From a virus, in the IMG/VR virus record IMGVR_UViG_3300020195_000089, positions 1 through 36,723 of that record: a stretch of 36,723 bases of DNA; one strand, 5' to 3'. The notes beneath the pieces are model-generated. The model did not search any database, was not told the origin of the DNA, and worked only from the letters and a program-made list of their open reading frames with translations. The translations under genes and the position numbers were made by a program. This document shows, piece after piece, positions 2,756 through 36,723 of the stretch (within the stretch, counting starts at the first letter, position 1; every line of letters begins with the position of its first letter).

Positions 2756-2762
2756 TTCTCAT
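2625..2762 (-). CDS. Possible 45-aa ORF built from the repeats
   Basis: ATG 2762 overlaps the primase-helicase stop (ATGA) and opens 45 codons beginning MRKTGRIGRIGRMKKIHPSG. The first half is the translation of the tandem ATCCGTCCG repeats (GRI GRI GRM), and a second copy inside the ORF gives KKTDGWTDD. The product would be very basic at the N-terminus. It may be a real DNA-binding peptide coupled to the replication gene, or simply an open frame through repeats with a 9-bp period. The overlap style matches many real genes in this genome, so it is listed. Confidence 0.3.
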   Translation of the reverse strand: MRKTGRIGRIGRMKKIHPSGCKLMKLLNNWKKTDGWTDDLLYSLY

Positions 2763-4915
2763 GGAAGCACCGCAGCGTTGCCTATATAACGAACAAAATT
2801 GTAGCCGCGCTGCTCCTTAATTTTTGTCTCGACCGGAAAATTGCCTATATTTCGCTCAATTAGTATTTTTTTAAATCTTTTACAAAATTGAATAAATTTT
2901 ACTGGAAACTGATTATTACACCGCGTGTCGTGGCAATATCGGTTGTAAAGGCTCCTTGCGGTAACGTCTCCATACTCGGTTGAGACCTTAATACTTTCAA
3001 TAAACCAAGCGTAAACGTTGTCGTTGTCTTCTCTGAATTCAAGCATCAGGTTATTCGAGACCGTTGGCTCTGTTAGTTTAAGCGTTGAGCTTACTCGCCT
3101 TGCGCCTTCGATTGCCCAGTTTAAAATTCCAGGCAATTCCTCTTTGAGTTTTTCAATTAAAAACACATCACGCCTTTCCAGTGGAATGAAGTTTTTAAAT
3201 GGTAAAAATACTAGCCTCTCCATTAATGATTCATTCTTGTCATCAAAGGTCGGAATTTTGTTACAAGCAAAAATAAACCTGGCATCTATTCTTAAATCGT
3301 ATTCGTCCTTACCTTTTTTTGCAGCCGTAAGAATTCCACCGCCGACAGCCGCTTTAAATGCTTCTGACGAAAGCTCTCCACTTGGCGTTTCCTCAACTAA
3401 GTTTGCAATTTTTCCATCGAGCGAAACAACGCTAAACGGTTTGTCTAAAAGCTTAATGCTAACACTTGCGGCGCCATTTCCGATCAGCATTCGAAATACG
3501 TCAATAAATGTACTCTTACCGTTTCGGCCCTCGCCGAAAAGCACAAAGGCTTTATGTAAAAACGGTTTTCCGCCAAGCAAGGTATAACCAATGATTTCTT
3601 GGGACAGTGCCGTAAGCTCGCCGTCCTTGCTGAAGACATCATCTAAAAATGAGATCCACTTAGGGCAGTCCGCTTTTTCATCGTAATTAATATTAATTTT
3701 ATTAGTGAAAAAATACTTCGAAGAACTTTGCAGCAATTCTCCAGTGACGACGTTTAAAACGCCGTTGTTTAAATTCATCAGGCCTTGAGTGCCTTTTCCG
3801 TCGCTTTTTTCAAAGCAAATTGACCTTGCGACTTTTTTAAAACTGCTTATCATAAAAGGCTTAAGCTTGTTTTTATTTGCCTGCATAATGATATTGTCAA
3901 AGTGCACTTCACCAATCGACTCCCAGTAACTACCGTTATAAATGTAATCAATAGTATCGTGACTTATTAATAGTCGTTCGCGCTTTAGGGTTTCGGCAAA
4001 CTGCGCGTAGTGCGGAACAACATTGCCATCGGCGCTTAAGTGAAAAAACCCACCCGATGATTTTAAAAAAGCGTCTATTGAAAGTTCGGTTTGGTTTTTA
4101 AAGCTCCAGCTTTCGCCTTTTTCTTCTTTCTTCTTTTTGAGCCAATCAACCGCACGGCTTACGTGCTGTCTTGCAAACTCTTCAGGCGAGTGTTGTTTTC
4201 TTTCCTGAGGGTCATTATAATAAGACTCATCACCAAACCACTCGACATCGATTGCCATAATGTGCTTAACAAGCTCGTCAAATGTTGAAAATTTATTTGC
4301 AACTTTAAAAATGTGCGCGCCGAGTGAAATATTTCTTCCGCCGGAATGCTTGGGTTGATTTGTAAAAAAATCCTCAACAAATATTTCAAAGTTAGTTAAA
4401 TCATCCTTTGTTAATTCCGGCAGTTCGCTTACTTTAACATCGGTTAGTTCATTTTCAGTAAGCCAAACGTAGGGCTTTTTTGTTTCCGAGTGAATCGACG
4501 GCGGCACGATTGTATAATTTCCGGTTGATAAAACTTCTAGGACTGTTTTTCTTTTATCTAGTGGGTGCTTTATTTTTCGCCCAGGTAAACTGCTTCTGTA
4601 AAAAGCGGAGAGCCCTTTTTTGCCTTTTTTCGCGACCAATATTTCCGGCGCTAATTTTTTAATTCCATCAAGAAATGCTTCGCGATCTTCGCCGTCGTAA
4701 TCAATATCGAGGCAAACCAGTCCGCCCAGTCCTAGGATTACTCCTATATTGAGTTTGGTTTTGATCTCTTCCCATTTTGAAATTTGCTCGTCGGTCGGCA
4801 TTTTTTTAGAAAACCGCTGGAAGCCCTTTTCTATTGGCTGGTCTTTTCCGATCACTGGCATAACGCTAAAGCCAGATTCATGATAATTCCTGGCGACGTC
4901 TGCAAAGATTGACAT
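2759..4915 (-). CDS. Primase-polymerase / SF3 helicase (D5-like) fusion
   Basis: The chosen start is ATG 4915 (MSIFADVARNYHESGFSVMP), with GAGGGG upstream; the open frame extends to 5014 but lacks a better site. The 718-aa product has an N-terminal archaeo-eukaryotic prim-pol domain: metal-binding DID at 70-72 in LVCLDIDYDGED, and the strand TGNYTIVPPSIH at 131-142. A linker is followed by a superfamily 3 helicase: Walker A GEGRNGKST at 461-469, acidic pair LVEET near 506-510, sensor Asn in FACNKIP at 549-555. It should synthesise primers and unwind DNA as a hexamer at the phage origin. It is transcribed leftward from the divergent region and ends beside the repeat cluster. The residue motifs are all intact. 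Confidence 0.92.
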   Translation of the reverse strand: MSIFADVARNYHESGFSVMPVIGKDQPIEKGFQRFSKKMPTDEQISKWEEIKTKLNIGVILGLGGLVCLDIDYDGEDREAFLDGIKKLAPEILVAKKGKKGLSAFYRSSLPGRKIKHPLDKRKTVLEVLSTGNYTIVPPSIHSETKKPYVWLTENELTDVKVSELPELTKDDLTNFEIFVEDFFTNQPKHSGGRNISLGAHIFKVANKFSTFDELVKHIMAIDVEWFGDESYYNDPQERKQHSPEEFARQHVSRAVDWLKKKKEEKGESWSFKNQTELSIDAFLKSSGGFFHLSADGNVVPHYAQFAETLKRERLLISHDTIDYIYNGSYWESIGEVHFDNIIMQANKNKLKPFMISSFKKVARSICFEKSDGKGTQGLMNLNNGVLNVVTGELLQSSSKYFFTNKININYDEKADCPKWISFLDDVFSKDGELTALSQEIIGYTLLGGKPFLHKAFVLFGEGRNGKSTFIDVFRMLIGNGAASVSIKLLDKPFSVVSLDGKIANLVEETPSGELSSEAFKAAVGGGILTAAKKGKDEYDLRIDARFIFACNKIPTFDDKNESLMERLVFLPFKNFIPLERRDVFLIEKLKEELPGILNWAIEGARRVSSTLKLTEPTVSNNLMLEFREDNDNVYAWFIESIKVSTEYGDVTARSLYNRYCHDTRCNNQFPVKFIQFCKRFKKILIERNIGNFPVETKIKEQRGYNFVRYIGNAAVLP

Positions 4916-4948
4916 TAAGAGGCCCCCCTCAAAATTAATTAAAAAGTA

Positions 4949-5040
4949 CCGACCAAGGGCCAACAAAAAGAAGCGTTTTAAAACGAAAGCGCCGACTTTT
5001 TTAAGAAAAAACACTTCGAAATTGTTGGCTCGTTGGTCGG
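4949..5040. promoter_or_regulatory. Divergent control region with inverted CCGACCAA sites
   Basis: CCGACCAAGGGCCAAC at 4949-4964 is repeated in inverted form at 5024-5040 as the complement of CCGACCAACGAGCCAAC. Between them is a perfect 12-bp palindrome, CGTTTTAAAACG, at 4974-4985. The first site is just upstream of the primase-helicase start. Paired inverted sites between divergent operons look like operators for a dimeric regulator that could loop the DNA. The XRE-type protein at 572-895 is a candidate binder, by inference only. I could not pick out convincing -35/-10 boxes. Confidence 0.45.
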
Positions 5041-5156
5041 CGTTTTAAAGTGTGCACTTATCTTTGGGGCTGTAAAACATAAAAAGTTGAGCACGACGCC
5101 GAGCGTTTCATTTTTTAGTTTCCTTTTACTGTTTTTGCTGTCAGATTTGCAATCCG

Positions 5157-5294
5157 TTACTACTGTAGATTTAAATAAAAAACATCGAGGTTCGGCCCGT
5201 AGAAATATTCTAGAATCCTCTCTCTATCTACAGTAGTAAAAGAGATTCTGGGCTTCTGCGGGTCGGGCTAATTTTAAAAACCGAGGGGGTTTTT
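5157..5294 (+). ncRNA. Structured 5' leader of the plus-strand operon
   Basis: TTACTACTGTAGAT (5157-5170) and ATCTACAGTAGTAA (5226-5239) are perfect 14-base inverted repeats. An alternative fold also exists: CCCGTAGAA near 5196-5204 pairs with TTCTGCGGG near 5254-5262, enclosing AGAATCcTCT paired with AGAGATTCT around a CTACAGTAG loop. A third hairpin, AAAAACC-GAGG-GGTTTTT at about 5276-5294, contains part of the GAGGGGG ribosome binding site. Mutually exclusive stems next to a hairpin that includes the ribosome site look like a translational or attenuation switch. No known riboswitch class is recognised. Confidence 0.45.
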
Positions 5295-5993
5295 TTGTCC
5301 TTGATAAAAAGTGAGATAATCTCTCAAGAGAAGTCTAAAATCGTTAACGACTATAAGGCTATGAATATAGTAATTGCTGGATTGCCAAAAGTCGGAAAGA
5401 GCACATTTGCTTCACAGATTGGTGCTGACGGTTCAGTCTATTTCTGTTCGACCGAGAAGGGCTTAGATTTTCTCGAAGTATATAAGACGGAAATCCGCGC
5501 CTGGACTGAGTTTCAGAAGCTAGTCACAGAATTTTGTAAACAAACTAAATTCAAACATCTAGTAATCGACGTGATGGACAACTTGCACGATATTTGTGTG
5601 GATCACGTTTGTGAGACTAACAAAGTAAAGGCGTTGACGGACTTAGCTTTTGGAGCTGGATTTACAGCCACTAAGAAATTCATCATGAAAGAGCTTGTGA
5701 AGCTAAACAACGCCGGCAAGGGAATTACTTTCGTCACCCACACGAAGGACAAAGAGATCAAAAAAGAGGCCGTGACATATACGGCGGTAGCGACGTCTCT
5801 TGCGAATTCGATTGAAGAGAAAATCCTTGGCATGAGTGATTTGATTTTATTTTGCTACGTTGATAAAGACGGCAAGCGAATGATGCGAACAAAGCCGACT
5901 AAGCATATTATATGTGCCGGCGATCGCAGCGGGAAATTGCCGGATGTAATGCCAATGGACGCTAAATTATTACTTGAAACGTTAAGCATATGA
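5295..5993 (+). CDS. Sak4-like RecA-fold ATPase (recombination/annealing)
   Basis: The 232-aa product has Walker A GLPKVGKST at residues 29-37 and a Walker B-like HLVIDVMDN at 88-96. Its length and the layout, with VTHTKD in the middle and no second helicase domain, match phage AAA_24/Sak4-type proteins, which bind single-stranded DNA and promote strand annealing. An SSB-like gene follows directly and a YqaJ exonuclease closes the same operon, a known combination for phage recombination. The start is TTG 5295, or TTG 5301, with GAGGGGG at 5283-5289. That site is embedded in a hairpin, so translation may be regulated. The name Sak4 rests on motifs and context, not on a search. Confidence 0.8.
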   Translation: MSLIKSEIISQEKSKIVNDYKAMNIVIAGLPKVGKSTFASQIGADGSVYFCSTEKGLDFLEVYKTEIRAWTEFQKLVTEFCKQTKFKHLVIDVMDNLHDICVDHVCETNKVKALTDLAFGAGFTATKKFIMKELVKLNNAGKGITFVTHTKDKEIKKEAVTYTAVATSLANSIEEKILGMSDLILFCYVDKDGKRMMRTKPTKHIICAGDRSGKLPDVMPMDAKLLLETLSI

Positions 5994-6054: not shown

Positions 6055-6471
6055 ATGGATATTTGGAACGCAATTGACAATGCAGATGCTACCGCTGGGC
6101 TTAAAGAATTCACGATGTTGCCAGAGGGCCAATATAAGGCCGAAGTAACAGACGTTGAGATAAAAGAAGATATTTTTCAAATTTCATTAAGTGTTGAATT
6201 TACTATTACCGAAGGCGAGATGACTGGCCGCAAGTGTTGGATGAACTCAGTATTATCTGAAGAGATCGCGCTTAGTAATCCGACCAGGCTTTCAATGGTG
6301 AAGGCGCAAATCTGTAAGCTTGCAGGCACGGATACAACCGGCGGCGAACCTGCCGAAGTATTAGCCGGGTGCAAAGGCAATACTGTATCGATAACGATTA
6401 AGCACAATCCATCTAAAAAAGATGCCTCGAAAATATATGCCAATGTTTATGTGAATGAGAAGTTGAACTAA
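6055..6471 (+). CDS. SSB-like protein (DUF669-type)
   Basis: The 138-aa product starts at ATG 6055 behind AAGGGGTG. It has the pattern of phage DUF669 proteins: LPEGQYKAEVTDVEIKED near residues 22-39, a second strand ISLSVEFTITEGEMTGRKCW, and a C-terminal strand KIYANVYVNEKLN. This beta-barrel family sits next to Sak4 or other recombinases and is thought to bind single-stranded DNA. It follows the ATPase by 61 bases and ends in a 4-base tail-to-tail overlap with the VRR-NUC gene. The acidic C-terminal tip of classical SSB is absent. Confidence 0.75.
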   Translation: MDIWNAIDNADATAGLKEFTMLPEGQYKAEVTDVEIKEDIFQISLSVEFTITEGEMTGRKCWMNSVLSEEIALSNPTRLSMVKAQICKLAGTDTTGGEPAEVLAGCKGNTVSITIKHNPSKKDASKIYANVYVNEKLN

Positions 6472-6978: not shown

Positions 6979-7197
6979 ATGAATAAAGTTCGTCATCAAA
7001 AAACACTAGCCGCATACTGGTATCGTTTTATGCAGGGTGTTTTCTCAGTGTTGGAGTTAATTTTTATTCCAATTGCGGCGGCTACGATAATGTTTGGTGT
7101 TTTGGTTTACAATTTAGGGGCTTATATTTTAAGGCGCTCAGATCGGGCGTCTTTGTTGATAGAGTCGGTGTCTGATAAGTCGAAAGGCGGATCATGA
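6979..7197 (+). CDS. Small membrane protein, 72 aa
   Basis: ATG 6979 follows AAAGGA with a 6-base spacer. The 72-aa product has a basic N-terminus (MNKVRHQKTLAAYWYRF) and a single long hydrophobic stretch at about residues 22-48 containing LELIFIPIAAATIMFGVLV, then a charged tail, so an N-in single-pass inner membrane protein is likely. It overlaps the next gene by 4 bases (ATGA). Function is unknown; superinfection exclusion or holin-like activity is possible for such proteins, but nothing in the sequence decides it. Confidence 0.7.
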   Translation: MNKVRHQKTLAAYWYRFMQGVFSVLELIFIPIAAATIMFGVLVYNLGAYILRRSDRASLLIESVSDKSKGGS

Positions 7198-7391
7198 CAC
7201 TTGAATTTTGCAATGGCGAATTAGTGATGGAAGTCGACGAGGGCGCGGTTGAATGGGCAGAGGCTTATTGCAAGTCGATTGATAAGTTTGTTGATGTGAC
7301 TGAGCATTTGCCGGATAAGTGGCGCGAAGAGGCAAGGGTTGAGTATTTTGTCAGGCTGCTGGATAGGGATGATTACGAGGGGGACAGATGA
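7194..7391 (+). CDS. Small acidic hypothetical protein, 65 aa
   Basis: The ATG overlaps the previous stop and the TGA overlaps the next ATG, so the three genes are translationally coupled. The product (MTLEFCNGELVMEVDEGAVE...) is strongly acidic and Trp-containing, with no membrane segment. Size and charge resemble small phage proteins that inhibit host DNA-binding proteins or simply serve unknown roles. I recognise no family. Confidence 0.7.
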   Translation: MTLEFCNGELVMEVDEGAVEWAEAYCKSIDKFVDVTEHLPDKWREEARVEYFVRLLDRDDYEGDR

Positions 7392-7672
7392 TTCACTTCG
7401 TAGCGGGATTTTTCACGGCTGAGGATTTTATGCAAAACCTCGACAGGTTTCAAGCTGAGGAGGTCGCTGCTATAGCAAACGACAAGTTAGCAAAGATTCA
7501 AGACAAGCGGATAGAGAAGTCGAGGTGCGCGCTGACTGACGATTTTATGCAAAACCTCGACAGGTTTCAAGCTGAGGAGGTCGCTGCTATAGCAAACGAC
7601 AAGTTAGCAAAGATTCAAGACAAGCGGATAGAGAAGTTGAGGTGCGCGCTGAATGGCACTTTCGGCGTTTAA
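7388..7672 (+). CDS. Hypothetical protein made of two near-identical 39-residue units
   Basis: The 94-aa product has a short leader (MIHFVAGFFTAE) and then two copies of a unit starting DFMQNLDRFQAEEVAAIAND and running to ALTD or ALNG. The units differ at one position (Ser/Leu) before diverging at the end. Each is a predicted amphipathic helix pair rich in Ala, Glu, Lys and Gln. The duplication is visible at DNA level with only one mismatch in 112 bases, so it is recent or kept identical by recombination. A single-copy ancestor of about 55 residues is likely. No known domain. Confidence 0.65.
   Translation: MIHFVAGFFTAEDFMQNLDRFQAEEVAAIANDKLAKIQDKRIEKSRCALTDDFMQNLDRFQAEEVAAIANDKLAKIQDKRIEKLRCALNGTFGV
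7424..7652 (+). repeat. 117-bp tandem duplication inside a gene
   Basis: Bases 7424-7535 and 7541-7652 match at 111 of 112 positions with a period of 117 bp (39 codons), so the reading frame is kept. The one mismatch is TCG/TTG. It lies fully within the 94-aa gene. Confidence 0.97.
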
Positions 7673-26040: not shown

Positions 26041-27618
26041 TTACAAGACTGATTTCACAACTTCAATTCGTCGCGCAGTAACAGTCACGCCAGCAGTTGA
26101 ACTTGCAGCTCTTAGCCGCATATCAGCGCCAGAAATGTCCACCGACAAAGTTAAGTTGAAATTAGCCCCAAGCTTCAAAAGAGAGTGTGCAGTATCATCA
26201 ACATCCGTGCCGTTATTCAAAGCAAAAATCTCAAACGATTTTCTGTTCGCAGGAGTCGCCTCTTGAAATGCCTCGACTAACCACTTACAAGCCTTAACGC
26301 TCGCGTGAGGTACCGAGTCAACAGTCACAGCAGTAGTAATGCCAGTCGATTGAACGCCTCGCATTTGCTCAAGCAACACTTCGATTCGCTGGAATAACTG
26401 TTTAGAAGTCTGGCTATCGGCTAACGATACACCCGTGAAAGTACCAAAAGAAGATGCGTTTTCTGCCACACCAGAAAGCGTAATCAAATCATTTACGTTC
26501 TGATCAACTTCCTCATGCGCAGTCTCAAGAGATTGCAAAGCTTCTTTATTATCTGAGCTGTCAGGAATTGTCGCACCAGTGAAGGTACCCAAGTCCGTAG
26601 CATTCTCAGCGACACCGCTAAGCGTGATTAGATCATTAACATTCTGATCAACTTCCTCATGAGCCGTCTCTAAAGACTGTAAAGCCGCTTTTACGGTAGA
26701 AGAATCAGCAATCGTCGCACCGGTAAATGTTCCAAGCGTGGTCGCATTTTCAGCAACCCCACTTAAGGCAATTAGATCATTTACGTTTTGGTCGATCTCT
26801 TCCTGAGCGGTCTCCAATGATTGAAGCGCTGCTTTAACAGTCGAAGAATCAGGAATGGTAGCACCTGTAAAAGTACCAAGTGACGTAGCACCCGGTGCGA
26901 CGCCTGACAAAGTAGTCAAATCAATCTGATTACCGTCAAGCTTTTGGATTGCTGAGTTTACAGTATCCGCAGAAGTGATCGAGCCGTTGGTTTGCGCGTA
27001 ACCGGCTGCCATATTGATGCCGTCTGCGAAATTCCAATTCACATCGGAGATCTTAATCATGATAGTGCCGTTGTAATTCACAATCGCTTCAGACTCTTGA
27101 GCCGCAGGACTGTCAGGCAAGTAATGCTTAGTTACAAAAGTATCATTCGCAACAAGCGCAGAAGCCGCTGCTACGAAAGTGACATCGGCACCGACTACAG
27201 CGCTAATTCTTAACAAAGCAGGAGTGCCGTCAGCATCCGTGATCACATACTTATCAACAACAAAATCACCGATAGGTACCGCAGTACCTTCGTCATCCGA
27301 AAAAGGCGACACAACCATGTCACGAGTGCCTGCACCTTGGATTGCGTTAGTTACTAAAACAAGGCTTTCAGGTCTCCATGTACCGATTACAGCAGCGGTC
27401 GCACCGTTTAACTGGTAGTCAGAAGAATTGCCGACGTTTGCAATCTTTTGGTAAAGCTGGCCAGTACCTGATCGAACATAAAGCGAACCAATGGGCGCAT
27501 CCGACTGATCAAGCAATCCATCTGGCGCGGCTGTACCTGATAAAATATCGATTAATTCATTACCGTTTTCCTGAAATAATCTAACGCCCTTTTCAATCCC
27601 GTGAAGTACTCTTCCCAT
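26041..27618 (-). CDS. Head- or neck-fibre type protein with four 48-residue repeats
   Basis: The 525-aa product starts MGRVLHGIEKGVRLFQENGN. Residues 233-424 hold four tandem units of exactly 48 residues, each with DL-x-x-LSGVA-x-x-A-x-x-x-GTFTG-x-x-x-x-DS followed by a helix (VKAALQSLETAHEEVDQNVN in the second); the last is the most divergent. The units look like alternating short strands and a coiled-coil helix in a trimeric shaft. The C-terminal 100 residues form a separate beta domain. It lies among head genes, well before the tail genes, so a capsid or neck fibre is more likely than a tail fibre. Confidence 0.65.
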   Translation of the reverse strand: MGRVLHGIEKGVRLFQENGNELIDILSGTAAPDGLLDQSDAPIGSLYVRSGTGQLYQKIANVGNSSDYQLNGATAAVIGTWRPESLVLVTNAIQGAGTRDMVVSPFSDDEGTAVPIGDFVVDKYVITDADGTPALLRISAVVGADVTFVAAASALVANDTFVTKHYLPDSPAAQESEAIVNYNGTIMIKISDVNWNFADGINMAAGYAQTNGSITSADTVNSAIQKLDGNQIDLTTLSGVAPGATSLGTFTGATIPDSSTVKAALQSLETAQEEIDQNVNDLIALSGVAENATTLGTFTGATIADSSTVKAALQSLETAHEEVDQNVNDLITLSGVAENATDLGTFTGATIPDSSDNKEALQSLETAHEEVDQNVNDLITLSGVAENASSFGTFTGVSLADSQTSKQLFQRIEVLLEQMRGVQSTGITTAVTVDSVPHASVKACKWLVEAFQEATPANRKSFEIFALNNGTDVDDTAHSLLKLGANFNLTLSVDISGADMRLRAASSTAGVTVTARRIEVVKSVL

Positions 27619-36490: not shown

Positions 36491-36723
36491 TTTGGGTCAA
36501 TATACTCTTCAGGCGCCGACGCCGCAGAGCGCAGATCCGCAAAGCTCAGATCCGCAGAGCGCAGATCCGCAAAGCGCAGATCCGCAAAGCGCAGATTCGC
36601 AGAGCGCAGATCCGCAGAGCGCAGATCCGCAGAGCGCAGATCCGCAGAGCGCAGATCCGCAAAGCGCAGATCCGCAGAGCTCAGATCCGCAAAGCGCAGA
36701 TCCGCAGAGCTCAGATTCGCAGA
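36487..36723 (-). CDS. Pentapeptide-repeat protein, C-terminal part (continues from the window start)
   Basis: The minus strand is open from the window end to TGA 36489-36487. The last 120 bases (36604-36723) duplicate the window start, so only 36603-36487 is new: five more A(D/N)L(R/S)(S/F) units and the tail [12 protein letters not shown]. The frame agrees with the N-terminal part. The stop overlaps the GTG of the sigma-like gene. The acidic tail after the helix is the only non-repeat part at this end. Confidence 0.85.
36531..36723 (-). repeat. Tandem 15-bp repeat array, second segment
   Basis: Thirteen units of the same 15-bp repeat as at 6-330, the last one cut by the window end. Units 6-13 (36606-36723) equal units 1-8 of the first segment base for base, as expected if the contig ends overlap. 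Confidence 0.95.
36604..36723. other. Terminal overlap of the contig (120 bases)
   Basis: These bases are identical to 4-123. The three bases before differ (AGA against CAG). This is what an assembler leaves when a circular or circularly permuted molecule is closed on itself, but because the overlap lies in a tandem repeat it could also be a false join. Confidence 0.8.

Follow-up and report, generated by a model that had tools for sequence, protein, structure and literature searches.

The window, by which is meant the whole 36,723-base viral record that was analysed, carries a 15-bp tandem repeat common to both of its ends (4–331 and 36522–36723), and for this reason we take the genome to be probably a circle, or permuted, that was opened within the repeat gene. 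Read on the − strand, the repeat encodes a pentapeptide-repeat protein, (ADLRS)n. A Cro/C1-type HTH protein is encoded at 572–895, an integrase was not noticed among the genes examined, and a genome scan for the host yielded none. The locus considered here is the gap at 4916–5294, which lies between a leftward primase-helicase gene and a rightward pair of genes encoding a Sak4-like protein and a single-strand DNA-binding protein (SSB). The genes, and the structures found in the gap between them, are as follows:

2759–4915, − strand: Prim-Pol / D5-type primase-helicase (Pfam PF09250, PF08706, PF19263), divergent from Sak4
4949–5040, both strands about equally stable: hairpin A (arms 4949–4966 / 5022–5040)
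5157–5170, + strand: 5′ arm, TTACTACTGTAGAT, of a 14-bp perfect inverted repeat
5189–5204 / 5254–5269, + strand: outer stem of hairpin B, 16 bp including 5 G-U pairs
5209–5252, + strand: inner stem of hairpin B (5209–5217 / 5244–5252 and 5219–5221 / 5241–5243), plus 4 apical pairs
5226–5239, + strand: 3′ arm, ATCTACAGTAGTAA, of the 14-bp inverted repeat, within the apical region of hairpin B
5276–5294, + strand: weak hairpin AAAAACC-GAGGG-GGUUUUU (5276–5282 / 5288–5294), its loop containing the ribosome site
5283–5289, + strand: Shine-Dalgarno sequence GAGGGGG for Sak4, assigned from its sequence, the motif being found also ahead of other starts of the phage
5295–5993, + strand: Sak4-like ssDNA-annealing protein (AAA_24, phrog_124), TTG start
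6055–6471, + strand: SSB (DUF669 / phrog_378), the second gene downstream

Alignment with L123, the one syntenic relative found (reached via a scan with the YqaJ nuclease), backs the primase-helicase start at 4915. For Sak4 the same alignment favours a TTG start, at 5295 or 5301, over ATG 5361, because an N-terminal extension is common to L123, which has no Met at the later ATG. GAGGGGG is therefore the plausible ribosome site for Sak4, as an earlier, sequence-only reading of this DNA had proposed; GAGGGG is also found ahead of several of the phage's other start codons, that of the primase among them.

That reading had also described a perfect 14-base inverted repeat at 5157–5170 and 5226–5239, which was confirmed: TTACTACTGTAGAT and ATCTACAGTAGTAA form the longest perfect inverted repeat in the window, and the only one of at least 13 bases, at gaps of up to 150. 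A repeat of 14 was reached in 4.5% of Markov shuffles of the window and in 0.2% of shuffles of the gap alone. Each arm holds a 9-bp odd palindrome (CTACTGTAG and CTACAGTAG) that has no other copy in the window, and further operator-like sites in the window did not exceed chance. No iterons stood out in the gap, where the best shared hexamer containing G+C was GACCAA, at 2 and 3 copies, a degree of sharing met in 10% of shuffles. Viral contigs scanned for the inverted repeat gave no match.

Hairpin B (5189–5269) folds with a predicted energy of −37.5 kcal/mol, and the 144-nt fold that encloses it has z = −4.2. When the + strand of the window was scanned in 90-nt stretches, every 10 bases, hairpin B was the most stable stretch (−38.5, against a mean of −15.2 and a standard deviation of 5.3), and hairpin A ranked next below it, after one overlapping frame. 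A strong alternative fold of two stems, as had been claimed, is thus indeed predicted (outer 5189–5204/5254–5269, inner 5209–5221/5241–5252). The stems comprise 16, 9 and 3 bp with an internal loop, dimensions of the kind looked for in an RNase III site (a stem of about 20 bp or more, with an internal loop). Eight of the 32 pairs in hairpin B are G-U, and isolated 1×1 A-C mismatches are absent; the energy of the complement is no better than −21.2 kcal/mol, compared with −37.5 on the + strand. Since the irregularities of the + strand fold are G-U pairs and the complement is weaker, these data point to an RNA read from the + strand, and are as expected from selection on that RNA; strand asymmetries larger than that of hairpin B do occur in other stretches of the window. 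In one such stretch, 7096–7215, the + strand folding bias exceeds that of hairpin B, with a difference of −20.6 kcal/mol at 7126. The structures in the gap are real and probably under selection.

The 14-bp stem and the two-stem fold had been described as mutually exclusive, a description that comparison of their coordinates did not confirm. The 14-bp stem and the 16-bp outer stem have no base in common and lie in crossing order (5157<5189<5239<5254<5269), the inner stem (5209–5221/5241–5252) is also clear of the 14-bp arms, and true conflict is limited to four weak apical pairs (5224–5227/5233–5236). Since the two stems cross instead of sharing bases, they could coexist as a pseudoknot, and would be exclusive only in a pseudoknot-free model. 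Duplex energies are −18.2 for the 14-bp stem and −25.8 for the 16-bp outer stem; by our own estimate, which sums the stems less a typical penalty and is not a computed fold, the pseudoknot would be about as favourable as the nested fold. In nested folding of a lengthening chain, the 14-bp stem appears first (to about 5260) and is displaced from about 5264 on.

A hairpin had further been placed over the ribosome site. The hairpin itself, 5276–5282/5288–5294, is predicted, but GAGGG (5283–5287) lies in its loop, and only the last two G of GAGGGGG (5288–5289) are paired. GAGGG was computed to be 78–94% unpaired in every state imposed, namely the free RNA, the 14-bp stem forced, the outer stem forced, a pseudoknot-like state and alternative 5′ ends. 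Sequestration, in which one of the folds would pair the site and the alternative would release it, was therefore not found, the unpaired probability being 0.78–0.94 throughout. The ribosome site, flanked by UUUUAAAAA and GAUAAAAAG, and where the weak hairpin forms, begins 13 nt downstream of the end of hairpin B.

No sigma-70-like promoter in the gap scored above the best site in shuffles, and assignment of a transcription start from promoters was dropped for that reason. Were transcription to begin at the candidate positions of about 5058, 5160 or 5183, the RNA would carry both arms of the inverted repeat, most of both or one arm, respectively; we infer that transcription of the region comes from upstream of 5189. 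The covariance models of Rfam 15 gave no match at gathering thresholds, with only a chance-level hit (E = 4.7) on the other strand, in agreement with the earlier reading, whose author knew of no matching class. Several more specific identities were also considered and set aside. An intrinsic terminator or attenuator would need a G+C-rich stem that runs straight into a U tract; here, hairpin B is followed by AAUUUU, and the 5276–5294 hairpin is A+T-rich with 2 G-C pairs; the latter was not reported by the terminator scan. An integron attC site lacks its GTTRRRY core here, a tRNA or tmRNA in the gap was ruled out by scan, and a small protein at 5033–5236 has no corresponding ORF listed in the gap of L123.

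Relatives of the locus were few. Scans of viral contigs with Sak4 or the primase as single proteins found none, blastn of the gap against phages gave no match, and relatives by terminase (57–65%) were without a detectable Sak4/primase module. L123 shares about 60% identity in Sak4, 53% in SSB and 37% in the primase. The gaps of the window and L123 gave no meaningful alignment, and because of this no covariation model was built. Even so, the longest perfect inverted repeat in the 13.8-kb locus of L123, of 11 bp (ACTGTCGCAAG/CTTGCGACAGT, 1886–1896/1986–1996; chance within its gap, 1.5%), falls in this gap, and so does the + strand hairpin that is the most stable there (rank 1 of 1369 for the locus). 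Like the window, L123 has one arm of the repeat within the hairpin and the other beyond it, and the repeats again cross; the outer arm is 3′ in L123 and 5′ in the window. CGACTGTCG overlaps one of the L123 arms, and the L123 ribosome site is predicted to be mostly paired.

More distant Sak4 loci were obtained by pattern search. In five primase-side gaps (L170, L172, L173, L174 and L171) the best hairpin ranked 1, 2, 5, 1 and 1 on the Sak4-sense strand, against a background of only 3–4.5 kb per locus; in L171 a different gene lies on the far side of the gap, Sak4 not having been located in that stretch. These hairpins are usually about equally stable on the complement. Every one of the five gaps thus has a hairpin among the most stable of its locus, and several of these hairpins have a T tract after them, towards Sak4, a possible origin or leader terminator. 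Because Sak4 genes inside operons (for example L128, L129, L130 and L154) have no such gap and no leader, the recurrent structure, as judged from these arrangements, goes with the divergent primase-side gap and is not a Sak4-specific riboswitch.

Our tentative choice, held with less than even confidence, is that the gap is a structured region controlling two divergent units and provides Sak4-SSB with a constitutive leader in the form of a stem-loop, a function that we infer. The gap would serve the primase-helicase leftwards and Sak4 and SSB rightwards; the rightward RNA would fold at 5189–5269 into a long stem-loop upstream of an exposed ribosome site. This stem-loop would be constitutive, comparable in size to RNase III substrates or to hairpins that protect 5′ ends, and would set the processing or stability of the Sak4-SSB mRNA while keeping the ribosome site clear, with no switching. 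The 14-bp repeat may pair across hairpin B as a pseudoknot, or act as DNA. In early phage transcripts, the T7 R sites and the lambda leaders include hairpins at which RNase III processes the RNA, and the predicted hairpin B would resemble them in its stem of about 28 bp, its internal loop and its position shortly before the ribosome site of an early gene. Counted against a leader are the mostly paired ribosome site of L123, the failure of any promoter in the gap to beat shuffles, and the near-equal stability on both strands of hairpin A and of most of the relatives' hairpins, which fits a role in DNA as well. Such a role, in which protein sites or replication-origin dyads are what matters and the RNA fold is incidental, is possible but somewhat doubtful. 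It could take the form of an operator pair with the core CTACWGTAG, or of hairpins read by the primase-helicase, whose gene adjoins the gap. Divergent origin or control regions occur beside phage primase-helicase genes, and the present gap is like them in lying beside an initiator-type gene and in having strong dyads on both strands; to our knowledge, replication origins in this phage group are unmapped. The window-unique palindromes CTACTGTAG and CTACAGTAG in the arms, with CGACTGTCG in L123, are in keeping with an operator. However, a shared ACWGT core was rejected as proof of one, as the repeated part in L123, ACTGTCGCAAG, is off-centre on the palindrome. Also against a DNA element are the strong + strand bias of hairpin B, the lack of iterons that stand out or of further operator-like sites beyond chance and, unlike in divergent phage origins, the lack of an established A/T unwinding element.

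If the crossing stems do form an H-type pseudoknot from the 14-bp and 16-bp stems, it might be an autogenous translational operator, bound by SSB (or Sak4), which would then spread across the ribosome site and its A/U-rich surroundings, much as gp32 of T4 acts on the mRNA that encodes it; by analogy with that system this is conceivable, and we consider it unlikely. In T4 gene 32 a 28-nt pseudoknot is followed by a weakly structured ribosome-site region rich in UUAAA/UAAA, and both are essential for repression (PMC535899). The present leader may resemble the T4/RB69 gene 32 operator in its capacity for a pseudoknot, its A/U-rich ribosome site, flanked by UUAAA/UAAA-like tracts as in the T4 target (PMC535899) though with a weak hairpin predicted there, its SSB operon and its place in a recombination/replication module. 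The stems cross without common bases at an estimated energy close to that of the nested fold, the operon encodes both Sak4 and SSB, and crossing repeats recur in L123. The likeness is in outline only: the leader is four times longer (113 nt for the pseudoknot here, about 28 nt in T4), there is no match in sequence or size, and the first gene is Sak4, SSB being the second. Moreover, L123 has its outer arm on the 3′ rather than the 5′ side of the hairpin, a crossing order is not an uncommon outcome of chance where two such repeats are present, and 5157–5170 would have to be in the transcript, with no promoter in the gap above chance. The fuller proposal, that the pseudoknot is a self-repression site for a recombination or SSB protein with a functional equivalent, unrelated in sequence, in L123, is again an analogy and is given rather little credence. 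A similarly low standing is accorded to the view that the gap changes fast and that its structure is neutral or due to chance and does nothing by itself: conservation of the gap sequence is absent at 60% protein identity, but the repeat and the hairpin are rare in the window and top-ranked hairpins recur in the gaps of several relatives. Very improbable is the regulatory switch originally envisaged, in which the 14-bp stem and the two-stem fold would alternate and gate the ribosome site. Its one attraction is the displacement of the 14-bp stem from 5264 under nested folding; the accessibility of the ribosome site is about the same in all states and is barely altered by forcing either fold, the main stems are compatible save for the 4 weak apical pairs, and no Rfam class matches.

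Were the hairpin or the pseudoknot functional, the locus would reveal a means by which phages of an uncharacterised family adjust their Sak4-SSB recombination operon, and a region of control or of replication origin would be marked by the strong hairpin that recurs next to the primase. An autogenous pseudoknot, if true, would be a second, unrelated solution to the control achieved in T4 gene 32.

Elsewhere in the window, two 117-bp direct repeats, 98% identical, at 7419–7652 duplicate 39 codons in a small ORF (7388–7672), and about three degenerate 144-bp repeats (26476–26890) lie in a 525-aa ORF (26041–27618), possibly a fibre protein. Among the contigs compared, the one bearing L009 and L015 (IMGVR_UViG_3300025652_000060, 65,335 bp) has both its terminase and its capsid-like gene of this kind in duplicate, two of each, and looks as if two related phage genomes had been joined.
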